DNA of 28,473 nucleotides from a virus. Location of the stretch: IMG/VR virus record IMGVR_UViG_3300050014_000182, positions 1 through 28,473 of that record. One strand, given 5' to 3'. Under the pieces are notes generated by a model. The model made no database searches. It saw nothing but the letters and a program-made list of their open reading frames with translations, and was not told where the DNA came from. Below, piece after piece: positions 14,025-25,897 of the stretch (the stretch's first letter is position 1; the number at the start of each line of letters is the position of its first letter). A program made the position numbers and the translations under genes.

Positions 14025-16016
14025 TTAAATTGAGCAACGGCAATTAATTGTTTCCTCGGCGTCGCCTCTCGGGTCGTGCGGGAACATAAGTCCATTGCTG
14101 AACGGCATATTCATCGGCACTTCCTCGCCGTCGGCTTCGGCGTGGCTATCTCTGGTGGCGTCGTCCATAACGGCCACCCAGATTTTAATATCCACTCCGG
14201 CCTGCTTATAACCTTCATAATTTCCTTTCTGGAAGTAGCCCCCGACTTCTGTCCTCGCAATGGTCTTGGCTCGGCCGGTGCTAATGTCGCCGTATAGGTT
14301 TTCAATCTGGCTAACGAACTCGTCCCTGTTCGTGTTTCCCTGTATATGGTCGGCCAATCGGGCTTTAAGTTGTCCGAGGGTGGTGTCGTTAATCTTGCCA
14401 AGGAAGTAGGAAGCCCGCTTATCAATCCAACCCGCAATGTCGCCGGTCAGCATAAAGTCGGTTTTCGCTCCCACAAGGGTCTTGGCGTCATTGCCGGCTT
14501 TAAGCAGTATGGTTTCAAGTAGCGGTTTCAATTCTTTAATGCCAATCTTGACCTCGCTTCCGGCGTGGAAAACGTCGTCCATTAAATCCTTATGAAAGGA
14601 ATTGACTTGACTGGCGTTTAACTTATCCACAACCCTGCGTTTCTGTCCGGCCAAATATTTTTTCAGTTCGGTTTGGAACTTGGCCTCAAACTTATCCGCT
14701 TTTTTAATATACTCCCCCCAATATTTAATCCTAAAATCTTTATCTCTTAAAGGGTGATTAAAACTTTTTTTTTTACTTTCTGCCGGTGCGGTATTTTCTG
14801 CCGGCGTCGGTGGCTCTGCTCCCAAAGGTGAAACTGAAAATGGGGCAAGAATTGTGTCGCCGTTTTCAATCGGGTCAAGCCCGACGTTCGCTCTGGCTTC
14901 GTTAATCGTCATATAATAATTTTGTATGCCATTGGCGTTCTGCTGTAAAACAATATCCATATCGTCCGGCACAGGATTATTAAAAGTTAATTCATAGCCA
15001 ACCGGCACGAGTTCGGTTTTCTCATTTAATTTTTCGCACAACGCACCCATTAAAGGTTTAACAGTATCCCGCAAAAATATTCTCATTAAAACTTCGGCGT
15101 TGTCATATTTAATATCCTCGGCGGTTGATAACAAAACTTTCGGCACGTCAGTTAAAACTGAAATGTCGTTAAGGGTTGAACGCTTGCTTTCCAAATAAGA
15201 AAGTTCAGTAGGGTTAAGAGCAATGTTTTTATAGTCCGCTTCACCGCCTAAAAATAAAGGCATACCTGCTTTGGTCGCTTCGCTATAATTCTTTTTATAA
15301 TCGTCTTTAAGTTCTGCCAATTTTGTCGGGGACATATCGCCTTTGAAGTTCATAATACCCTCAATTTTTCCGCCGTTTTTCAAAACATTAACCTGATAAT
15401 TTTCTAATTCCATTTCGGTTGATATGGCTTTCGCTCCGGCTCTTAAAATACTCATACCTCGTAGCGGGTTGCTCGGGTCTGGGTAAAAGTCAAATATGAT
15501 TTCCTCTGGCTTATAAGTGATTGCCTTGCCCTCGGTCGTCTGTCGCTTGTAGCCAACAACATTTGTGTAGGTGGCGTCATAAAGTATTTCCATTTGGCTC
15601 GGGTTAAGCAAATGTAATCCGGCAACTTTCAAATCCGTTCCGCCGAAGGTCATCTTGGGTTCAAGCCAAACATAAACCTCGCCATAAATATCTTTGTATT
15701 TTTGGTAGAGGGCGATAAATTGTCTTCCCGTGTGAAACTTGTTTGGTTTGGAAAGTAAATTAAGCAACGGGTCGTCGTCAATAATTTCTTCATTTTTTTC
15801 CAAAATAAAATTAATCTCGCTGACTTTTTCCGCCCGCTTATTAATCGCCTTGTTAACATACAACGCTAAATTGTAGGCGTTCAAAAAATCTTTTTGCGTC
15901 CAACTTTCCTCTTTGCTTTTCATCTGCTTGCTTTGAAATAAAATATCCATAGTATCGCCCAATTCTTTTTTGGCAAAGCCGTTGAATATTTTTGTGAAGA
16001 AGTTTTTCCGTTCCAT
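14025..16016 (-). CDS. Portal protein fused to a MuF head-morphogenesis domain
   Basis: 663 residues. Residues 1-410 are a portal of the HK97/SPP1 type: NKAINKRAEKVSEINFILEK, the wing with YGEVYVWLEPKM, EEIIFDFYPDPSNPLRGMSIL, and later VLLSTAEDIKYDNAEV with the crown helix. A linker (APAESKKKSFNHPL) leads to a MuF domain (about 430-663): YIKKADKFEAKFQTELKKYLAGQKRRVV, then RAKTIARTEVGGYFQKGNYEGYKQAGVDIKIWVAVMDDATRDSHAEADGEEV, and a terminal FPHDPRGDAEETINCRC. Usually these are two genes; here the minor head protein is built into the portal. It lies directly after the terminator-like leader. The protein forms the DNA entry ring and probably carries MuF into the capsid. Confidence 0.85.
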   Translation of the reverse strand: MERKNFFTKIFNGFAKKELGDTMDILFQSKQMKSKEESWTQKDFLNAYNLALYVNKAINKRAEKVSEINFILEKNEEIIDDDPLLNLLSKPNKFHTGRQFIALYQKYKDIYGEVYVWLEPKMTFGGTDLKVAGLHLLNPSQMEILYDATYTNVVGYKRQTTEGKAITYKPEEIIFDFYPDPSNPLRGMSILRAGAKAISTEMELENYQVNVLKNGGKIEGIMNFKGDMSPTKLAELKDDYKKNYSEATKAGMPLFLGGEADYKNIALNPTELSYLESKRSTLNDISVLTDVPKVLLSTAEDIKYDNAEVLMRIFLRDTVKPLMGALCEKLNEKTELVPVGYELTFNNPVPDDMDIVLQQNANGIQNYYMTINEARANVGLDPIENGDTILAPFSVSPLGAEPPTPAENTAPAESKKKSFNHPLRDKDFRIKYWGEYIKKADKFEAKFQTELKKYLAGQKRRVVDKLNASQVNSFHKDLMDDVFHAGSEVKIGIKELKPLLETILLKAGNDAKTLVGAKTDFMLTGDIAGWIDKRASYFLGKINDTTLGQLKARLADHIQGNTNRDEFVSQIENLYGDISTGRAKTIARTEVGGYFQKGNYEGYKQAGVDIKIWVAVMDDATRDSHAEADGEEVPMNMPFSNGLMFPHDPRGDAEETINCRCSI

Positions 16017-16415: not shown

Positions 16416-17804
16416 TTACGCAAAGCCCACAAAGGCCTGCTCATAAAATGTTAGAATAAATGCGTCCGCATAGTCGGGGCTTTTATGCGTTCGGGCTTTC
16501 AAGCGTTCCTTTGGCTCAATCTGTATGGCCTTGTCGCCTGTCGCCTGCTTGTATTTAATCCACGTTAATTGATTAAAACCGTCCTCTTTAACAAATACGC
16601 CCCCGCCTTCCACCCATAGTTTGGCCTTCCAAGTTAGTTCGGCCTTCAAATTAAAAAAAGTATTCTTATCCCGTGCCGGCGTCCCCACGGAAACTCCCAC
16701 GCACCAATAAATCTCTTTTAGTCGGTCGCTCACGCCCCTGCCAATCCCAATATCGTCAATAAAAACATTGTCCCACTTAATCCCGTATTCCTTGACAAGT
16801 TCCTCAATCTTTTTCACGTTCACCATAGTATCCTTGGTTTGTAAAATCCCAAGGCAACAAGCCACCCTTCCCTTCCGGCCAACAAATACGCTCTTATCTC
16901 CACCCCCGCCAATATCGCACCCAAGCATAATGTCGCCTTCGCTCTGGTCAAACTTGTCCCTGCTCACAAAGCAAATCTGGTCGTTAAGGATTAACTTCAA
17001 ATAGCCGTCAGCGTCGTAGGCGTCCTCGGGCGGGAACTCGCAAGCGAATAAAATATCAAATAGCGGTTTGCCGTGGGCTTCGTCTATGAACTCTTGGCTA
17101 TACCTGTTCTCCTTAATCGCCTGCCGGTGGTCAATGAAAATGCGGGCGTAGTTCGGGTTGTGCCAACTCTCATAAAAATGCGTGTTCGGGGCTTGGTTAT
17201 AAAACGGGTTTCCAATCTTACAATAAAATGCGTCCGCCCCCTTGCCGGCAATCATACGGAATATGGTCGCCTCGGTCTGGTCGTTGATTAAGCACGCCTC
17301 GTCCATAATAACAATTTTCGCTCCCTGCCCCATAGCACTTTCAATGCTCTTGCCAAGACTTTTTTGCTGTGCGGAAAGAACGAATATACCCCCGCCGTTT
17401 CTTAAAATAATCCTCTGCTTGCTGTCCTCTTGGCGTAGCCGTTCCAGTTTAGTTTCATAGTCCAGTTCCTCGCTGAACAATCGGTTATCTCCCAAATGTT
17501 CAATGAAGTATCGCATTATAATCTTGGCCTTGTCGTTGGTCGGGGCAATCACGGCCACAACCTCATTTTGAAAGCAAGTAATAATCAAGCAAGCCAATGC
17601 CACAACCAAACTCTTGCCGTATTGCGTAGAACAAATAATTTCCAACCTCGTATAGTCCCTAAAAATAAGGGCGTCCAAAATAACAAGTTGTCCGTCCGCG
17701 ATAATCTGGTCAAAAGAAACCCCATTAAGGTTGAACAGGCTCGCTATCCCCAGAAGCGTCTGCTTCCGCTTCGGGTCTAATATTGGAAGTGGTATCTTTA
17801 ACAT
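16416..17804 (-). CDS. terL: Terminase large subunit
   Basis: 462 residues. It has the ATPase Walker A-like CSTQYGKS (58-65), Walker B IVIMDEA (164-170), a coupling motif near the GNP at 198-200, and an RNase H-like nuclease with D297 (LGCDIGGGGDKS), D350/D351 (FIDDIGIGRG) and D444/D447 (SPDYADAFIL). It is the motor that packs DNA into the prohead and cuts the concatemer. The start overlaps the small subunit by 80 bases, longer than usual; the leader ACTTATAAAAT lies inside that gene, and no later Met fits. The length is near the usual 450-550 residues. From this sequence I cannot tell headful from cohesive-end packaging. Confidence 0.9.
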   Translation of the reverse strand: MLKIPLPILDPKRKQTLLGIASLFNLNGVSFDQIIADGQLVILDALIFRDYTRLEIICSTQYGKSLVVALACLIITCFQNEVVAVIAPTNDKAKIIMRYFIEHLGDNRLFSEELDYETKLERLRQEDSKQRIILRNGGGIFVLSAQQKSLGKSIESAMGQGAKIVIMDEACLINDQTEATIFRMIAGKGADAFYCKIGNPFYNQAPNTHFYESWHNPNYARIFIDHRQAIKENRYSQEFIDEAHGKPLFDILFACEFPPEDAYDADGYLKLILNDQICFVSRDKFDQSEGDIMLGCDIGGGGDKSVFVGRKGRVACCLGILQTKDTMVNVKKIEELVKEYGIKWDNVFIDDIGIGRGVSDRLKEIYWCVGVSVGTPARDKNTFFNLKAELTWKAKLWVEGGGVFVKEDGFNQLTWIKYKQATGDKAIQIEPKERLKARTHKSPDYADAFILTFYEQAFVGFA

Positions 17805-18276
17805 ATTTTATAAGTTCGTTTAATTTATCCTTGGTCTGCTTATTCTCGGCTCTGTCCTCGTCGTCAATCTTAATGTTCTGGGCGGGCGTTCCTAAAATCC
17901 TATTAAGTATTTCCCTGCTCGCTTTCAATCTGGCGTCGGCGTTATATCTCCCCGCCATAAGGGCAATAGTAGTTCGGGTCGCAAGTTCCACGCTTTCGTC
18001 AAGCAGGGTCTTGGCTCGCTCAATGGCTTCCTGCCTCATAAGCCCTCGGTAAGCGTCATACGCCGGCCGTAGTTTGCCTTTCTCATAAAACCATTGTCGC
18101 AGGTTGACGGCGTCCAATGAATAAACATATTCGGGAAACTCCTGCTTTAATAGTTTGCTTAAATCCTCATAGCGTCCGCCTTCATACTTCAACTCAATGG
18201 CACGCATTTCGGTCTTTGTCAATTCCTTGGAGTTTGTTTCCCATTGTAATAAATAGTTTTCCTTGTCAAGTGCCAT
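17725..18276 (-). CDS. terS: Terminase small subunit
   Basis: 183 residues from the ATG at 18276 (MALDKENYLLQW), which has the AT-rich leader TTATAATTAT typical of this window. An upstream GTG/ATG-frame extension to 18312 would lack such a leader. N-terminal residues (ELTKTEMRAIELKYEGGRYEDLSKLLKQEFPEY) look like a helix-turn-helix DNA-binding domain, with LNLRQWF-like NLRQWFYEKGKL as a recognition helix. The centre is helical (oligomer core: EAIERAKTLLDESVELATRTTIALMAGRYNADARLKASREILNRILG). The acidic C-terminus probably binds the large subunit. It pairs with terL next to it. Confidence 0.75.
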   Translation of the reverse strand: MALDKENYLLQWETNSKELTKTEMRAIELKYEGGRYEDLSKLLKQEFPEYVYSLDAVNLRQWFYEKGKLRPAYDAYRGLMRQEAIERAKTLLDESVELATRTTIALMAGRYNADARLKASREILNRILGTPAQNIKIDDEDRAENKQTKDKLNELIKYVKDTTSNIRPEAEADASGDSEPVQP

Positions 18277-18280
18277 ATAA

Positions 18281-18997
18281 TTATAATTTATTCCACTTAA
18301 AACGCACCTCAAATTGGTTATGCTTCTTATGGAAAATGACTTTAACTTTATCGCCGTATCTTTTAAGCATATACCCGCATTGAACTTTCATAAAGTCGCT
18401 GTCTTTGTAATATCCCATTGCCCCGCCGTCCTTGCTTTTCATCTTGTGTAAAAACATATAGTCATACCAACAAGCGGTCTTAAATCCCCGCACAATAAGT
18501 TTGGCACTCAAATCCCAATCATTGAAAATCTTTAAGCGGGTATCATAGCCCCCAATCTCGGTAATTTTTTCTACGTCCAGAAAAACCATACCCCACGCCC
18601 CGACTTTCTCCTTGAACTTCTGGTCTTTAACATACCAATTATGGCCGGCAAAACTCACCATAAGTTGGGCGTAGTTCTCCTTTCGCATTATTTCCTCGGC
18701 TTCAAATAAAAATCTGTTAAGGTCAACTGGCTTGCCGTTCCGTTGTTTCAAGCCGTATATGTCGTCGTCCGCAAATAAAATGTATTTCTGGCCGGCAAGG
18801 TGGTAATGCCGGACAAGGAAGTCCATAACATACCCGAAGCCTTTGTCGTTTTCTGGCATAACAATCAAAGCGTTTTCCCCCACTCGCTCCCTGTATTTCT
18901 CGGCGTCCTGCGGTTCGCAAATAATATCAACCAGCGGGAACACCTTGTCAATCGTATAATCCAATCTGTTCTTGCTCGGCGAAACAATTTTTATCAT
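18281..18997 (-). CDS. GT-A type glycosyltransferase with DDD motif
   Basis: 238 residues. It opens MIKIVSPSKNRLDYTIDKVFPLVDIICEP, and YILFADDDIYGL (72-83) contains the metal-binding D77-D78-D79. A mid block AGHNWYVKDQKFKEKVGAWGMVFLDVEKITEIGGYDTRLKIFNDWDLSAKLIVRG has the W-G, GG-Y-D and N-D-W-D-L-x-x-K elements of the GT-A acceptor side. It probably transfers a sugar from a nucleotide donor. It resembles the phage glycosyltransferases sometimes found near DNA base-modifying enzymes (TAGT-like), but I cannot confirm that. Its ATG overlaps the radical SAM stop (ATGA at 18997-18994), so the two are translationally coupled. Confidence 0.65.
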   Translation of the reverse strand: MIKIVSPSKNRLDYTIDKVFPLVDIICEPQDAEKYRERVGENALIVMPENDKGFGYVMDFLVRHYHLAGQKYILFADDDIYGLKQRNGKPVDLNRFLFEAEEIMRKENYAQLMVSFAGHNWYVKDQKFKEKVGAWGMVFLDVEKITEIGGYDTRLKIFNDWDLSAKLIVRGFKTACWYDYMFLHKMKSKDGGAMGYYKDSDFMKVQCGYMLKRYGDKVKVIFHKKHNQFEVRFKWNKL

Positions 18998-20283
18998 ATT
19001 GTCGCTTTCTTATAATTAAAAAAATAAATAGCGTGTCCGTCCTTGCCCTTTCCGCCAACAAACACAAGCCCTTCAAAGTATTTTTCAAAAAAGCCCCTAT
19101 CCCATTGCCGTTCAAAATATTCCTCGTAAGTCATATTGCGGATAATGCTCGCCTTCGTGCCGGCCACGTTCAGCGTTCCCCCAACCTTGGCCGTGTTTCT
19201 CCACTCCCTTTCCGCTTCGTCCGGCGTCGCTTTGGCCTCGGCAAAAGTAATAAATCCTTTGGTCTTGGCAATTTGTAGCAGGCTCGCCCATTGTTCTCGG
19301 GCATAGCCGTTAAAATGCTCATTGCTATCAAGTAATCCGCAACAGCTCCCAGAACAATTTTTGTCCTTATGGTGGGCGTCGCTAATAAAATATTTCAAAT
19401 CGTATTTCTCGCATAAGTTCACATATTTCCAGACATAAGGCTTAATGAAGTCGCTGTTAAGTCGCACAAATCCCGCTCCTGTCCCGAACTTCTTATAAAA
19501 ATCAATCAGGGAAAATCCGCAGGCCTTTGATATTTCTTGGTAGTTCATCAAGGTTTTATTCTTGCCATAACTCCGGCGTTCCAAACAAAAAAACTCGGTA
19601 GTAATGCTCTGACAACCAATCTCTTTGGCCGTCTTAATCTGTTCCTCTAAATCCAAATCAGTCAGCCCCACAATGAACGGGCGTAATCTCCACGTCGTCA
19701 ATGTCCCGCACTCTTGGTTAAGCCGGCGTAGGTTTTCCACCCGCTCCTGCGGGCTTGGCGTTCCTTTCTCCACGAGTTTACTTTTTTCTGGGTCAAGTGT
19801 GATAATGCTCGCCTTGTAATGCCACCGGCTTCCGGCCTTCTTAAACTCCGCCAAGTATTCTGGGTTGCGGGTCGGCAAGGTGGACTTGCTGGAAAAAGAA
19901 ATCGGATACTCAAACTCGTTGAATAGCCGTAAAAGTTCTAATCCCACGGATAAGTTTTCCTCGTAGTGGCAGAACGGGTCGGATAATCCGCCCCATTGAA
20001 TTGGTTTTTTGGCTTTAATCCAAGCGTTGAACGGGGACTTGGTCTTGCCTTCAAGCAGTTTCCGCACCTTGGCCACGTCCACGGCCTTAACGTGCTTGGC
20101 GTTGTATTCGTCCTTGCCGTTTCCCATACCCCTCTGGTATTGGGAAAAACAATAAGCACAATTATACGAGCAGTTGGAATACTGGTCAAAAGTTAATGGC
20201 ATTGAACAATCAGCGAACTCGTATGTAATCCGCATTGAATTATACTCACCGGCACATTTGTCTTTTAATTCGGGTTTAAGCAT
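18994..20283 (-). CDS. SPL-like (COG1533) radical SAM enzyme
   Basis: 429 residues from ATG 20283 (MLKPELKDKC); a TTG two codons earlier is unlikely. The [4Fe-4S] motif is C38-x3-C42-x2-C45 (CSYNCAYCF). GGLSDPFCHYEENLSVGLELLRLFNEF matches the G-x-x-D-P-F/Y-x-x-x-E signature of the spore-photoproduct-lyase-like (COG1533) family, and ISFSSKSTLPTRNPEYLAEF matches its T/S-K-S-x-L-x-x-R block. A later CSGSCCG could bind a second cluster. Members act by 5'-deoxyadenosyl radical chemistry; some act on DNA thymine lesions. It lies between ParB-like and glycosyltransferase genes, overlapping both. Substrate unknown: DNA base, glycan or protein. Confidence 0.75.
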   Translation of the reverse strand: MLKPELKDKCAGEYNSMRITYEFADCSMPLTFDQYSNCSYNCAYCFSQYQRGMGNGKDEYNAKHVKAVDVAKVRKLLEGKTKSPFNAWIKAKKPIQWGGLSDPFCHYEENLSVGLELLRLFNEFEYPISFSSKSTLPTRNPEYLAEFKKAGSRWHYKASIITLDPEKSKLVEKGTPSPQERVENLRRLNQECGTLTTWRLRPFIVGLTDLDLEEQIKTAKEIGCQSITTEFFCLERRSYGKNKTLMNYQEISKACGFSLIDFYKKFGTGAGFVRLNSDFIKPYVWKYVNLCEKYDLKYFISDAHHKDKNCSGSCCGLLDSNEHFNGYAREQWASLLQIAKTKGFITFAEAKATPDEAEREWRNTAKVGGTLNVAGTKASIIRNMTYEEYFERQWDRGFFEKYFEGLVFVGGKGKDGHAIYFFNYKKATI

Positions 20284-20896
20284 TTTCAATTAAAGTTAAT
20301 AATTTATCCTTGTCCAATTCCCCCTTGCGGGTCGTTTCAAAGGCGTCCTTAATGGTCTTGTATTCGTCCCAAGTTTCCACATAAAAAGCCAATTTATTAC
20401 ATCGCTTCGGGTCGTCCGGCGTGGCCAGTTGAACGGCCACCTTCTCATTGCGGTCAAAAAGTTTTTTAAGTTCCTCGTCGTTTTCCGGCTCGTAGTTTCC
20501 CGTCTGCTCCGCCATAAGTTCCTGCCGAGCAAGGAATTGATTAACTTCCTCGTCCCTAAAACCAAGGGCTTCGTTTTTTAATTCACCAATCATTTTCGTC
20601 AATTTTACTTCGTCCCAACTGCCGTTGATTTTGTTCAAGGCCAAATTCAAGCGTTTCTCGTTTTTCTTATCAAGGTCAACCACGAAACACGGCACTTCGT
20701 CCCAACCAAGGGCTTCTGCTCCGAACGCTCTTTGGTGTCCCCCGATAATGGTCATATCCTTGTTCACCACCACCGGCTCAACAAACCCAAACTCTTGTAT
20801 GCTTTGTTTCAAGGCTTCCATTTCAAAGTCAAGCATTATCCTCGGGTTGTATTCCGCTTTTTTTAACTCGCTAATTTTAATTTTTTTGATTTCCAT
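20276..20896 (-). CDS. ParB-like N-terminal domain protein
   Basis: 206 residues. The ParB/sulfiredoxin fold is clear: KKIKISELKKAEYNPRIMLDFEMEALKQSIQEFGFVEPVVVNKDMTIIGGHQRAFGAEALGWDEVPCFVVD, with GGHQR (52-56), which can bind CTP or act as an NTP-binding/nuclease centre. KRLNLALNKINGSWDEVKLTKMIGELK extends the domain as in phage forms. The C-terminal 80 residues (acidic, VAVQLATPDDPKRCNKLAFYV) have no ParB DNA-binding helix pair. Phage ParB-like proteins next to terminases often pair with modification enzymes rather than segregation. Its end overlaps the start of the radical SAM gene by 8 bases. No methyltransferase domain is fused to it here. Confidence 0.75.
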   Translation of the reverse strand: MEIKKIKISELKKAEYNPRIMLDFEMEALKQSIQEFGFVEPVVVNKDMTIIGGHQRAFGAEALGWDEVPCFVVDLDKKNEKRLNLALNKINGSWDEVKLTKMIGELKNEALGFRDEEVNQFLARQELMAEQTGNYEPENDEELKKLFDRNEKVAVQLATPDDPKRCNKLAFYVETWDEYKTIKDAFETTRKGELDKDKLLTLIENA

Positions 20897-21426: not shown

Positions 21427-22224
21427 TTAATTAATTAAACAATCGTGATAATTGACAATCACCCCGTCTTTAAGTTCAAAGGTGAAGCCGTTCGGGAATA
21501 TAATTTTCTTAAAACAATTTTTGGTCATCATTTTAATTAAGAACTCTTTACGATTTCGGTAGTATTTGTATTCCGGCGAATTATTTTTCTTATGGTCAAT
21601 CTCGCTTGTCCCATAATGAAACGCTTTCCATTTGCCCTGCTCTTTTAAGCGGTAGTAAAAGTCAAAATGCTCGCCCTCAATTTTCAAATCGTCGTCCCAT
21701 TGGTTGTCCTGCCAACACGCCTTTCTAAAAAGGGCGAAGTTCGCCACGCAGTCGCAGGTAGAACTCTGGGCGTGGGTCACCCTCAATATTCTCTGGTCGC
21801 TGAAAAAGTCATTATCATAACTAATTTTTCTAATTTCAAAATCATAATTAATCTTGACTTCCTTGCCGAACTCCAAAACTTTCCCGCCCACAACTCCAAT
21901 ATCCTCGCCGGCCAAAAGTTTTTGTTTCATCGTTTCAATGTCGGTCTTGTCCGTAAATACGAAGTCGTCCTCTAACAATAAAAAATAAGGCGTCTTGCTC
22001 CGCTCGGCAAGGTAATTTCTCATAAAAGAAAGGCCGGCGTCAAACGGCATTTCGTATATGGTGACGGGATTTCGGCGTCGCAGGGTGTTAAACGTGGGCT
22101 TTAAACGGCCACAGGAAGCAATTAAAACCCTATAACCCTTATAGTGGTCGTCTATGCTGTTCAAAAGGCGTTCTAACTCCTTAATCCTTTCAAAGCAAGT
22201 TATCAATATGGTTATTTCTGCCAT
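21427..22224 (-). CDS. GT2-like glycosyltransferase
   Basis: 265 residues, GT-A fold. It opens MAEITILITCFERIKELERLLNSI, then SFMRNYLAERSKTPYFLLLEDDFVFTD (66-92) with metal-binding E85-D86-D87. The acceptor side has WDDDLKIEGEHFDFYYRLKEQGKW, like GalNAc-type transferases (E-G-E/D-x-x-D-x-x-x-R), and a conserved HAQSSTCDCVANFALFRKACW block. A C-terminal 40 residues may bind an acceptor. It likely transfers a hexose or HexNAc. Its ATG overlaps the stop of the GT-B gene by 13 bases, so the cassette is one transcription unit. Confidence 0.7.
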   Translation of the reverse strand: MAEITILITCFERIKELERLLNSIDDHYKGYRVLIASCGRLKPTFNTLRRRNPVTIYEMPFDAGLSFMRNYLAERSKTPYFLLLEDDFVFTDKTDIETMKQKLLAGEDIGVVGGKVLEFGKEVKINYDFEIRKISYDNDFFSDQRILRVTHAQSSTCDCVANFALFRKACWQDNQWDDDLKIEGEHFDFYYRLKEQGKWKAFHYGTSEIDHKKNNSPEYKYYRNRKEFLIKMMTKNCFKKIIFPNGFTFELKDGVIVNYHDCLIN

Positions 22225-23189
22225 AAAATTGTTTCCAATTTTTTAATTTCCCTTTCCCAGTCGCACTCTTTTTTAATGGTTTCAAATCCGGCCTTCCCAA
22301 TCCGCCGGCGTTCCTCTGGGTCTTTAAGCAATTCCCAAATGTTCCGCTCATAATCCTCAACGCTCGCCCGTTCGCAAAGCCGGCTATTCTCGCCGTGAAC
22401 GCAGTATTCGTGGGCGGAAGGTATATCGGTCGTCACAACAGGCGTCCCACAAGCCATTGCTTCAATAATTGGCAGGCTCGCCCCTTCCAACAAGGTCGGC
22501 TTAAAGAAAATATCCGCCGTGCTGTAAATCGTCCGTAGCGTTTCCTGCGGTGGCTTGCTAATAAGCCGGTCATAAAGTCGGCTATTAATGCCTGTTCCGT
22601 TCCAAGCCAAATACCAAATGTCGCACTTGTCCCGAAACTTTTGAAGTGCCAGCATACCTTGGTAAATATTCTTATAATAAAAGTCCGAGTTGCCTTCAAT
22701 TAAAATCGTCGTCCGCATTTTCTTTAACCTCACCACCCACTCGTCCCTGTGAAATTGTTTGAAGTCAACGCAGTTTTTAATGTAGTAGCTCCCTTCCTTA
22801 ATCTCGTCCCGCAACCAATCTTGAACTGACTTGCCAATCGCAATAAGTTTATAGCCCATTTTGTAAGTCTGCCTCACAAGTTGTTCGTCGGCCTTGCTCT
22901 TGTTAAAATACGGCTCTAATCCTTGAACGAGGTAAAACTTCCGGCAGTTCAAGTTCATACGCTCAATGTCATAAACGGTTTTCCAGAAGGTCGCAATCAC
23001 AACGTCCGGCCGGTCAATCTCCCAAACGAACGGAACTTCCAATCCGTCAAACCAATCCTGCGTCATTTTCTTGTCGGTAGAATATAAAAAAACATCGTGG
23101 CCGAGTTTCTTTAATCGGTTGGCGTGTTCATAAACTATTCGTATGCCCCCGCAACAAATGGTTGCCGGTATCACATAAAATATTCTCAT
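22212..23189 (-). CDS. GT4-type (GT-B) glycosyltransferase
   Basis: 325 residues from ATG 23189 (MRIFYVIPATICCGGIRIV). The upstream frame extension is unlikely, because the ATGA at 23189-23186 overlaps the methyltransferase stop. The N-terminal Rossmann domain has a G-G-I/x-x-R-I-V-Y-E loop; the C-terminal one has FFKPTLLEGASLPIIEAMACGTPVVTTDIPSAHEY, the E-x7-E donor motif of GT4. It would use a nucleotide sugar (donor unknown). It is an unlike fold from its GT2 neighbours, which suggests a multi-step sugar chain rather than one reaction. Confidence 0.8.
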   Translation of the reverse strand: MRIFYVIPATICCGGIRIVYEHANRLKKLGHDVFLYSTDKKMTQDWFDGLEVPFVWEIDRPDVVIATFWKTVYDIERMNLNCRKFYLVQGLEPYFNKSKADEQLVRQTYKMGYKLIAIGKSVQDWLRDEIKEGSYYIKNCVDFKQFHRDEWVVRLKKMRTTILIEGNSDFYYKNIYQGMLALQKFRDKCDIWYLAWNGTGINSRLYDRLISKPPQETLRTIYSTADIFFKPTLLEGASLPIIEAMACGTPVVTTDIPSAHEYCVHGENSRLCERASVEDYERNIWELLKDPEERRRIGKAGFETIKKECDWEREIKKLETILWQK

Positions 23190-23752
23190 AATTTTTTTGC
23201 TAATATCCAAACTTCGGGGTCGCTCCGGCGGTGGTGGAAGTTTGATAAAATCTCCATACCGCACGTTTCTAAAAACTCGGCGATAATTCTCCCGTCCTCA
23301 AAAAAAGAGAAGTGGGCTTGGCTCTGCGGTATATCCCCAAGGGTCGGCACAATTAAAAATAAATGTCCGCCCTTCTTAATAAATCTCAACATTTTATTTA
23401 TGGCCTGCTCCCAGTGCGGGAAATGTTCCAAAGTATGGGAGCAGAAAATAAGGTCATAAAAGTTATCCGTGTCCTCGTATTCGTAAAAGTCCGCACATAC
23501 GGCGTCAAATCCTTTCGCCTTGGTCGTTTCAATTCTGTCCTCTAATGCGTCCACGCCTTTCAATCCCTTAATGCCCAACTCCTTGAAGCGTTCAAGGGCA
23601 TAGCCGTCCCCGCACCCTACGTCTAAAACGTTTTCAATTTTCTCGTCTTTTAATTTTTCCATAGCAAAGTCCACGCCTTCCCGACACATAGCAATAATAA
23701 TCGGGTGGTTGCGGAAATTGTTATCAACTTGGGCTTCAATATATGCTTTCAT
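23186..23752 (-). CDS. Class I SAM methyltransferase (first of two)
   Basis: 188 residues from ATG 23752 (MKAYIEAQVDNN), 2 bases after the previous gene's stop at 23755; a longer frame to 23794 is a read-through of that gene. Motif I is LDVGCGDGYA (43-52). IKGLKGVDALEDRI holds the acidic residue for the ribose, and DLIFCSHTLEHFPHWEQAINKMLRFIKKGGHLFLIVP matches motifs IV-V of methyltransferase domain 11. No target-recognition or DNA-MTase (N/D-P-P-Y) motif is present, so a small molecule, sugar or protein substrate is likely. Its stop overlaps the GT-B start. Confidence 0.8.
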   Translation of the reverse strand: MKAYIEAQVDNNFRNHPIIIAMCREGVDFAMEKLKDEKIENVLDVGCGDGYALERFKELGIKGLKGVDALEDRIETTKAKGFDAVCADFYEYEDTDNFYDLIFCSHTLEHFPHWEQAINKMLRFIKKGGHLFLIVPTLGDIPQSQAHFSFFEDGRIIAEFLETCGMEILSNFHHRRSDPEVWILAKKL

Positions 23753-23754
23753 AA

Positions 23755-24357
23755 TTATTTTGTAATTAAGTATATCGTATAAACGGCGTTCCACTTGTCC
23801 GTAATCTCAAAGCGTTCAAACTTCCCCGCCGGCAACTCGGCTTCAATCTCGGTTTGTAAGTAGTCCTGCTCGCAAAAACCAAGGACGTTATAAATCTTGC
23901 CTTTGGTCTGGCCTGCCCCTCGGTAAAAAATCAGGAAGGCGTAGTCCTTGGCAATCCGCAAGCACTCGGCAATCGCTTTTTTATATTCGTCGCCGTCAAG
24001 GTGTTCAAATATTCCTCGGGCGTGAACAACGTCAAACTCCCCGTCCTTAAATGGCAACTCCCGAATATCGCCTTGAACGCAATCAATGCCTTTCTCCTTG
24101 GAACAAAAATCAAGGAACTTCTGCGTGAAGTCAAGGCCAACAAAACGCTTGCCTTCTAAAAGGCCGGCTTTCTTAAAAATCAAATAGTCAACTCCTGTCC
24201 CGACCGGCACGTCTAAAATTGACTTGAACTCAATCTTTTTTAATAGTTCCAAAACAAACCAACGGGACGGGTGGTCTGTGCCACTCTGCTCGTCGTCCAT
24301 AAACTTTTGATACGGGTCAAAAACTTCAAACAAATTATTTTTCTTAACGTCAAACAT
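23755..24357 (-). CDS. Class I SAM methyltransferase (second of two)
   Basis: 200 residues. ILDVPVGTGVDYLIF (47-61) is motif I, with P in place of the usual G/C; VGLDFTQKFLDFCSKEKGIDCVQGDIRELPFKDGEFDVVHARGIFEHLDGDEYKKAIAECLRIAK follows the domain 11 pattern, including the D and H motifs. LIFYRGAGQTKGKIYNVLGFCEQDYL is the C-terminal beta unit. Again no DNA-methylase motif IV is visible. It probably methylates a sugar or amine. It sits between a GT2 gene and the first methyltransferase in one operon. Confidence 0.75.
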   Translation of the reverse strand: MFDVKKNNLFEVFDPYQKFMDDEQSGTDHPSRWFVLELLKKIEFKSILDVPVGTGVDYLIFKKAGLLEGKRFVGLDFTQKFLDFCSKEKGIDCVQGDIRELPFKDGEFDVVHARGIFEHLDGDEYKKAIAECLRIAKDYAFLIFYRGAGQTKGKIYNVLGFCEQDYLQTEIEAELPAGKFERFEITDKWNAVYTIYLITK

Positions 24358-24368
24358 AATTTTATAAA

Positions 24369-25166
24369 TTAATAATATTTTAAATTAGCAAGTTCCGGCG
24401 GTATCGGCCGGCCTTCGTGGAGTTCGGGGTCGTAGGGTTTAATGGCGTCCCGCAAGAATACCATTTCCAATTCCTCGTAGGTCGTCCCTTCCAAACGTTT
24501 CGTGACATAGTCGTCAAAAAAACCTTCAACCTTGTCCCCCAAATAAAAATAAAATAGCCGGCTTCGCACAAAGTTTTTCGGGCTTTTAAATCGGCAATGC
24601 CAAATAAAATCCTTAAACAAATCACCTTTCATAAATAATTTTCTCTGGTGTATAAGGGCTTCCAAGCCCTCGCAAGAAATATCGGCTATATAAACCCTAC
24701 CCGGAATATTGCGGAAAATAGCACACTCCCCGCCTTGGCCTATGTAAACATTTTTTTTATCTCGGCAAAGTATTGTGTTCGTCAAATAAAATCCTTGAAC
24801 GCTGTCGTCTGTTTCCGCCAGAATTGTATTTCTAATTTTCTCGCAAAGCCACGGCTCGGCGAAAAGGTCGCCGTCCCATTTAATAACCCACTCTCGGTCG
24901 CAAAATGAAAGGGCAAAATTATAATAATCGGCAAGGGTGGACTTGTTATGCTGAACGTTCAAATCGTATTTTTCAATAACCATTGTATCAAGTTTGTGCT
25001 TTTTCTTAAACTCCTCGGCAATAAAAAGCGAACTATCAATAGAATTGTTATCAATAAAAACAATCTGGTCGCCAATCTGTCTGGCACACTCCAACGCCAA
25101 GGCCAAGGTTATGCCCTCGTCCCTGTTTCTAATCATCACGCTAATTCCTTTTTTACGTTCTAACAT
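24369..25166 (-). CDS. GT2 glycosyltransferase
   Basis: 265 residues. It begins MLERKKGISVMIRNRDEGITLALALECARQIGDQIVFIDNNSID, typical GT2 with D39-N-N as the donor-binding site. WVIKWDGDLFAEPW (93-106) gives the metal motif D98-G-D100. The C-terminal half (FIWHCRFKSPKNFVRSRLFYFYLGD) carries a basic H-C-R-F-K patch. A GT2 of this sort transfers one sugar to a lipid or other acceptor. The ATG overlaps the previous GT2 stop (25166-25160), as in translational coupling. Confidence 0.75.
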   Translation of the reverse strand: MLERKKGISVMIRNRDEGITLALALECARQIGDQIVFIDNNSIDSSLFIAEEFKKKHKLDTMVIEKYDLNVQHNKSTLADYYNFALSFCDREWVIKWDGDLFAEPWLCEKIRNTILAETDDSVQGFYLTNTILCRDKKNVYIGQGGECAIFRNIPGRVYIADISCEGLEALIHQRKLFMKGDLFKDFIWHCRFKSPKNFVRSRLFYFYLGDKVEGFFDDYVTKRLEGTTYEELEMVFLRDAIKPYDPELHEGRPIPPELANLKYY

Positions 25167-25897
25167 ATTGTAATTTCTTTATATTCGCACAAGTCCATTT
25201 GCTCGGGCGTAATGCGATACTCTTTATCTAAAACCGGCTTCCACCTTTCAAGGTCGCCAATGCTTTTTTCAAGGTTGCCTTCGTGCTTTCTGTAAATTGA
25301 TAAAAACTCGTTCACATATTTCACCCGAAAACACAAGTTCATAATCCTACACCATAATTCGTAGTCCTCGCAATAATTCATTTTCCTCTTACACCCGCCG
25401 GCTTCAAGATAAACCTTCCGCTTCATAGCAACTGTGCCTTGATTAATGTGATTGCCGTTGTTCAGCATTTGGCGTAGGTCGGCTTGGGTTGTCTTGGCTT
25501 CGGTCAGTTTGTCTTTTTCTAAAATGCGGTAGTTCCCATAAATCATATCGGTCTGCTGTAATTCGTGGAAGGAAACGTCCAACCGGCTCGGTAGCATAAT
25601 GTCGTCGCTGTCTTGGAATACAAGGTATTCGCCTCGGGCTTCGGTCGCCCCAATGTTTCGGGGAATACAAGCGTTGCCGGTCTGTTTTTCTGTTTCAAAA
25701 ATGCGAACTTTCGGGTGCCATTTATAACTCATAACAACATCTCGGGTCGCCTGCGGGCTTCCGTCCATAATCAAAAGCAGTTCAAAGTGGTCAAAGCCCT
25801 GCTCCAACACGCTCTCTATGCTCTGTCGTAGTATGGCCGTGCGGTCATAAATCGGCGTAATCACGGATATTAATTTGTTCTTAAAAATGTCGGCCAT
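25160..25897 (-). CDS. GT2 glycosyltransferase
   Basis: 245 residues. Classic GT2 layout: LISVITPIYDRTAILRQSIESVLEQGFDHFELLLIMDGSPQAT (9-51), then GNACIPRNIGATEARGEYLVFQDSDDIMLPSRLD (74-107) with the D96-S-D-D99 metal motif, and the acceptor side MNYCEDYELWCRIM with the E-D-x-x-L/W motif. It is the most canonical of the four GT-A enzymes. It opens the cassette in the direction of transcription and follows the PD-(D/E)XK nuclease gene without a gap. It adds a sugar of unknown type. Confidence 0.85.
   Translation of the reverse strand: MADIFKNKLISVITPIYDRTAILRQSIESVLEQGFDHFELLLIMDGSPQATRDVVMSYKWHPKVRIFETEKQTGNACIPRNIGATEARGEYLVFQDSDDIMLPSRLDVSFHELQQTDMIYGNYRILEKDKLTEAKTTQADLRQMLNNGNHINQGTVAMKRKVYLEAGGCKRKMNYCEDYELWCRIMNLCFRVKYVNEFLSIYRKHEGNLEKSIGDLERWKPVLDKEYRITPEQMDLCEYKEITIC

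Follow-up and report, generated by a model that had tools for sequence, protein, structure and literature searches.

What might a ParB-like protein, a radical S-adenosylmethionine (rSAM) enzyme and a glycosyltransferase do together when encoded in a row beside the terminase genes of a virus? The question is raised by a 28.5 kb IMG/VR virus fragment (IMGVR_UViG_3300050014_000182), analysed over its whole length and referred to below as the window. Transcription of its minus strand runs from the ParB-like gene, through those for the rSAM enzyme and a TAGT-type glycosyltransferase, to the genes for the small and large terminase subunits (Table 1). Judging from the sequence, the three genes are probably a module for phage DNA hypermodification that is encoded alongside the packaging genes. 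This is the best reading of the locus because the glycosyltransferase is recognized by the TAGT profile, because ParB, TAGT and rSAM genes co-occur in many phages, and because relatives carry genes for TET/JBP or an amino acid:DNA transferase (ADDT) in the same operon. A hypermodification pathway had been suggested in an original prediction made from the DNA letters; the neighbourhoods and the TET/JBP or ADDT genes of relatives largely support it, but the description of the rSAM protein as similar to spore photoproduct lyase (SPL) did not hold. Viruses with the module probably disguise their DNA using modified bases, and the first step of the modification may proceed without oxygen.

In the scheme proposed, the ParB-domain protein would recruit the enzymes of the module onto the phage DNA. 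The rSAM enzyme would cleave S-adenosylmethionine, and the 5′-deoxyadenosyl radical would activate a DNA base, most simply at the C5 of a pyrimidine or at its methyl group. By analogy with T6 TAGT biochemistry, the TAGT would then add a sugar to the resulting, or to a pre-existing, hydroxymethyl-type handle. The outcome would be a glycosylated virion DNA resistant to host nucleases.

The three genes and their products

The three genes had been described as overlapping end to end next to the terminases, and the coordinates agree with this. The ParB-like and rSAM genes overlap by 8 bases if the latter is read from an internal in-frame ATG at position 20283 (14 bases from its TTG), the rSAM and TAGT genes share the four bases ATGA, and the terminase genes follow. 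The same gene order, with equally short overlaps, was found again in independent contigs; the arrangement seen in the window is therefore not due to chance.

The ParB-like protein matched ParB_N (PF02195) with 41 bits (cut-off 26.3), and the PHROGs agreed. Chromosome or plasmid partition ParB proteins were defined by a family match above the cut-off plus helix-turn-helix and dimer domains. The 206-aa window protein matched over the N domain alone and reached 33.5 bits with TIGR00180 (cut-off 58.45), which places it outside the partition ParB family.

The glycosyltransferase, picked out in the original prediction by its DDD motif, proved to be a TAGT by profile (PF20691, 53.4 bits, cut-off 27.5). 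The PHROG that it matched is that of beta-glucosyl-HMC-alpha-glucosyltransferase. Residues D77-D78-D79, a DxD-type metal motif, and G192-G193 were conserved in the TAGT alignment. The structural model (pLDDT 93.0) had a GT-A fold and was closest to the GT2 matches RmlT, chondroitin polymerase, TarP and TarS. The window protein thus shares the PF20691 profile and the GT-A fold with the T6-type beta-glucosyl-HMC-alpha-glucosyltransferase, but lacks an alpha- or beta-glycosyltransferase alongside. Solitary TAGTs are known in 288 of 753 phages, where their role was left unexplained (PMC13216743); the ParB-rSAM-TAGT module offers a concrete context for them.

The rSAM protein scored above the superfamily cut-off (PF04055, 34.1 bits versus 29.5), and both motifs read earlier are present: C-x3-C-x2-C as C40-SYN-C44-AY-C47, and G-x-x-D-P-F...E as W99-GGLSDPF106-x3-E110. 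Scans of viral and genome collections with the single sequence returned no relatives. A degenerate DNA pattern, made by hand from the conserved WGGxxDPFxxxE, found at least 119 viral loci, nearly all encoding rSAM relatives. These fall into two clearly homologous subfamilies (hhalign E 2.5e-59), a long form A, usually of about 400–500 aa, to which the window protein belongs, and a short form B of about 338 aa. Across 44 long-form relatives the cysteines C40, C44 and C47 were invariant, and the alignment had in common D35, C40-x3-C44-x-Y-C47-F, WGG-x2-DPF (99–106), E110, K135, R183, R201 and E232. Residues C28 and C316-C317, the latter part of a C316-C317-G motif in the window protein, were kept nearly always, and an equivalent of this CCG was also found in the short form. 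In two relatives, the cluster-cysteine motif is split by an intein-like insert that carries a gene for an HNH-type nuclease (L118, 3174–4545; L074, 4698–6553), a sign of strong constraint at this site.

Partners of the rSAM gene in related loci

For neighbourhood counts, the rSAM proteins were merged at 80% identity into 100 clusters, and 94 neighbourhoods were scored for ParB. Random anchors in the same loci (2000 trials) served as controls; the control loci being short and centred on the rSAM gene, they measure tight linkage rather than genome-wide association. A ParB gene lay directly upstream (position −1) of rSAM in 43 of the 94 neighbourhoods (random mean 2.0, maximum 8). Among 60 long-form loci, TAGT was found within two genes of rSAM in 17 (random mean 4.2, maximum 10), GT4 in nine (2.3, maximum 6), and an ADDT or kinase-like gene also in nine (2.5, maximum 8). 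None of the 37 short-form loci had a TAGT nearby, while seven had a gene for a pyridoxal phosphate (PLP)-dependent enzyme (random mean 2.0, maximum 6). A SPASM-domain rSAM gene within two genes of rSAM occurred in five loci, not above random (mean 3.8). The rSAM gene repeatedly overlapped a neighbour by 4 to 14 bases, and often by 4. ParB and glycosyltransferase genes, which had been put forward as partners known from predicted base-modification systems, are thus genuine companions of rSAM in many phages.

The partners of rSAM are DNA-modification genes and are interchangeable: TAGT, GT4, TET/JBP, ADDT with a kinase-like gene, or a PLP-dependent enzyme. The rSAM gene, usually with ParB, is the constant part of the module, and the decorators vary. 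In the rSAM tree at least four changes between sugar and amino-acid partners were counted, and the window's own clade (L015, L023, L030, L079, L091 and L093; support 100) was of the sugar type at every readable neighbourhood; the window's nearest relatives there are L015 and L023. Since the 338-aa subfamily lacks TAGT, the product of short-form modules may differ from that of the long form. In five loci (L068, L048, L109, L155 and L168), one or two ParB genes precede a short-form rSAM gene, the gene for a PLP-dependent enzyme (PF00291, phrog_3650) follows it, and terminase genes often come next; this enzyme may represent a second type of decorator. In L145 (4380–7263) the order is ParB, GT4, a protein of 168 aa, rSAM and terminase. 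The 168-aa protein has the motif HCDDAFLS and resembles PIG-L deacetylases by eye (it had no Pfam match); a deacetylated sugar is a possible product. A SPASM-domain rSAM gene follows TAGT in L012 (8176–9213), L061, L126, L053 and L119, and is a candidate sugar-tailoring enzyme.

Several relatives tie the module to known DNA modification genes. In L012 the order is ParB, TET/JBP (PF12851, 4e-24), ParB, rSAM, TAGT and SPASM-type rSAM, and its relative L061 shows the same order as far as the contig reaches. Five others (L132, L133, L136, L138 and L170) have ParB, ADDT, usually a P-loop kinase-like gene, rSAM and terminases; this order is seen in prophages of Bacteroidetes and Clostridia. ADDT was found in the loci or contigs of L056/L071, L074, L082, L118, L132 and L133, with PF18724 above the cut-off in L132 and L133. 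A glutamine amidotransferase-like protein adjoins ADDT in L010 (378–1073) and in L133 (3431–4069), where GATase_6 was just under the cut-off. TAGT lies directly after TET/JBP in Nonlabens phage P12024L (gp26-gp27), L006 and L007. The window resembles these in that a TAGT homologue adjoins a known or putative base-acting enzyme, but the rSAM gene holds the place of TET/JBP. A ParB-domain gene is also often found near the carboxymethylcytosine modules CmoX/CmoY of phages (PMC12783734), which similarly make a handle and then decorate it; their handle, unlike that proposed here, comes from a methyltransferase-type enzyme.

The family profile detected the rSAM protein of Pseudomonas phage M6 (1e-9 in the M6 genome; hhalign 97.4% over 178 columns, so the homology is not full-length). 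In M6 the distance from this gene to the ADDT gene is 1 kb, and to the gene for a thymidylate-synthase (ThyA) homologue 2.5 kb. Both are phage rSAM proteins with a TDPF/SDPF motif; the window family differs in forming a separate clade with another C-terminus (CCG) and with TAGT and ParB as partners, and the window lacks ADDT (PF18724) and a ThyA homologue. L074 and L082 each have two rSAM proteins, a true M6-type one (397 and 363 bits to M6; 1e-109 to 1e-119) and one of the window type, so the two families are not the same and the window type performs a different step. M6 DNA is described as containing 5-(2-aminoethyl)deoxyuridine (PMC6449724).

The step performed by the rSAM enzyme

Two reactions fit within the DNA hypermodification reading. 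The rSAM enzyme could act late, tailoring the sugar or other adduct after its transfer by isomerization, dehydration or deoxygenation, with the hydroxymethyl base supplied by genes beyond the window. This has a fair amount in its favour but is still rather doubtful. The M6 rSAM enzyme, its distant homologue, reportedly rearranges an amino acid adduct (Lee et al. 2021). The best PDB fold match of the window protein (AlphaFold2 model, pLDDT 92.8) was the sugar deaminase DesII, with AprD4 also among the matches, and TET/JBP coexists with rSAM in L012 and L061. However, DesII is one of many generic rSAM matches (with viperin, TsrM and AprD4, at TM ~0.3–0.4); the co-occurrence of M6-type and window-type proteins also speaks against a shared reaction. 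Further, the same subfamily is found with sugar and with amino-acid decorators, a poor fit to a single adduct-specific reaction.

Alternatively, and tentatively, the rSAM enzyme could make the base handle itself by oxygen-free oxidation or other functionalization of a pyrimidine (the thymine methyl group or cytosine C5), replacing TET/JBP or a deoxynucleoside monophosphate hydroxymethylase; TAGT, GT4, kinase plus ADDT, or the PLP-dependent enzyme would then decorate it. The rSAM and ParB genes stay constant while decorators are swapped across the tree, and in known systems the constant step that precedes varied decorators appears to be handle formation, which would make rSAM the handle-maker. 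The presence of an M6-type protein in L074 and L082 likewise leaves another step to the window type. TET was absent from 43 of 45 long-form contigs, several of them 80–140 kb long, and ThyA-family genes were also absent from 43; one 109 kb contig has ADDT, a kinase-like gene and rSAM, with neither TET nor the ThyA family found. The ThyA-family search did detect the M6 homologue. In the original prediction the base precursor had to come from elsewhere; as most related contigs have no recognizable precursor enzyme either, rSAM may itself make the handle, and a handle formed in this way without TET or a hydroxymethylase would be new. Host genomes, mainly from anaerobes, point the same way: the ThyA family was absent from 9 of 19, including the isolate Selenomonas S137, and TET/JBP from all 19, although the TET/JBP test matched no control genome either (it did match L012 and L061). 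Against early action stand the TET/JBP gene in the same operon as rSAM in L012 and L061, the fragmentary contigs and incomplete metagenome-assembled genomes, and the chance that a ThyX-type or other hydroxymethylase supplies the base. We know of no rSAM enzyme that hydroxylates a DNA base. A similarly tentative idea is that of a widespread, undescribed class of DNA hypermodification in which a ParB-guided rSAM enzyme installs the handle with no need for oxygen; it would be the anaerobic equivalent of TET/JBP and of the deoxynucleotide hydroxymethylases, and its sugar, amino-acid or PLP-dependent decorators would be interchangeable. How phages of anaerobes could modify bases without oxygen is not obvious, and the module would give a testable answer; if true, radical enzymes with swappable decorators would open up much new DNA-modifying chemistry.

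Some observations weigh against hypermodification of DNA as such. In the window, itself a fragment, no enzyme for making a hydroxymethyl base was found, as had been noted at the outset; TET/JBP (PF12851) had no match there, beside TAGT or elsewhere, and nor did the ThyA family. Among the relatives, TET/JBP is present in only 2 of 45 contigs, and a thymidylate-synthase-type gene also in 2 of the 45. To our knowledge, no chemistry has been assigned to this rSAM family. The 'kinase' label comes from a loose cluster (Pfam HMUDK, 0.044), and ParB-like genes are frequent in phages lacking a window-type rSAM, mainly alongside DNA methyltransferases. The TAGT fold is likewise that of wall teichoic acid glycosyltransferases. 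A TarP-like GT2 group is, however, also the nearest to the T6 TAGT (PMC13216743), so the fold provides no argument for a teichoic acid acceptor.

It is improbable that the genes act instead on a surface or virion glycan, or on a protein or peptide, with the ParB and terminase adjacency incidental. The glycosyltransferase and methyltransferase genes of the upstream block (Table 1) would suit this, as would the GT-A fold shared with TarP and RmlT and the replacement of TAGT by GT4 in some loci. Yet the recurrent partners TET/JBP, ADDT and ParB are none of them glycan-acting, the TAGT profile is above its cut-off, and the coupling to ParB is strong.

The best curated NCBIfam matches of the window rSAM protein, over ~200 residues, were PA0069 (2e-16) and Rv2578c (4e-12), families which we take to belong to COG1533, the orthologous group of SplB. 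Compared with these, the window protein has the additional conserved C28 and C316-C317-G and a long C-terminal region, and both matches fall far under the NCBIfam cut-offs (for PA0069, 60 bits where 360 is required). No SPL model appeared among the NCBIfam matches to E 0.1, and SPL was absent from the 50 best PDB fold matches and from the PDB profile search; the single-sequence search of PDB was empty and profile searches were weak. Membership of the SPL family was therefore rejected. That the protein is an SPL-kind DNA repair enzyme lying next to TAGT by chance is very improbable, given these results and partner genes of modification rather than repair type, even though its best matches are from presumed SplB relatives and a structurally very similar BFVD fragment bears the name 'DNA repair photolyase'.

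Distribution of the family and other genes of the window

The family is large and almost unstudied: uncultured phages and prophages carry it often, and among deposited phages it hardly shows. With two family members as queries, 50,697 deposited phage records gave one match at E 1e-10, to a fecal fragment. The window protein had a sole, low-scoring match, MT835833, which lies among bacterial-type genes (MutS2-like, transporter), is probably bacterial and was discarded as a phage member. Few loci came from scans with the terminase or with two TAGT sequences. When bacterial and archaeal genomes were scanned, 43 loci were found, mainly in Bacteroidota, Clostridia and other anaerobes; many are probably prophages, as terminase and portal genes follow. 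The module is thus present in at least 100 uncultured phage contigs and almost no deposited phages. It also occurs in bacteria that can be cultured (Bacteroides, Selenomonas, Fusobacterium, Clostridium and Faecalibacterium), among them Bacteroides fragilis S82 (L132), Selenomonas ruminantium S137 (L143), Fusobacterium naviforme ATCC 25832 (L150) and Clostridium hydrogeniformans DSM 21757 (L161). In the literature, no title or abstract was found that describes ParB-rSAM-terminase modules; new here are the family size, the decorator swapping, the operon links to TET/JBP and ADDT, the near absence from deposited phages and the culturable hosts.

Table 1. Positions and profile matches of the module and its neighbours in the window
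Feature	Position	Strand	Matches and remarks
ParB-like protein, ParB_N domain only, 206 aa, first in module	20276..20896	−	PF02195 2.1e-10; phrog_620 5.5e-43
rSAM enzyme, 431 aa from TTG, long (A) subfamily	18994..20289	−	PF04055 4e-8
TAGT-type glycosyltransferase, 238 aa, GT-A fold	18281..18997	−	PF20691 4.2e-14; phrog_842 1.5e-17
Small terminase-like subunit, directly downstream of TAGT gene, start 18276	17725..18276	−	phrog_2538 0.0014; homologue at equivalent position in L015
Large terminase subunit, start 17804	16416..17804	−	phrog_2 2.4e-26; homologues in L002, L003 and L015
Upstream block: three GT2, one GT4 and two methyltransferase genes	21427..25897	−	Pfam

The upstream block might provide further sugar-building enzymes for the module; its product could be a methylated oligosaccharide on the DNA, or a surface glycan. 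The remaining genes of the window are those for portal, capsid, connector and tail proteins downstream, and for glycosyltransferases and methyltransferases upstream. The portal protein (14025–16016, minus strand) is fused to a Mu F-like head morphogenesis domain.
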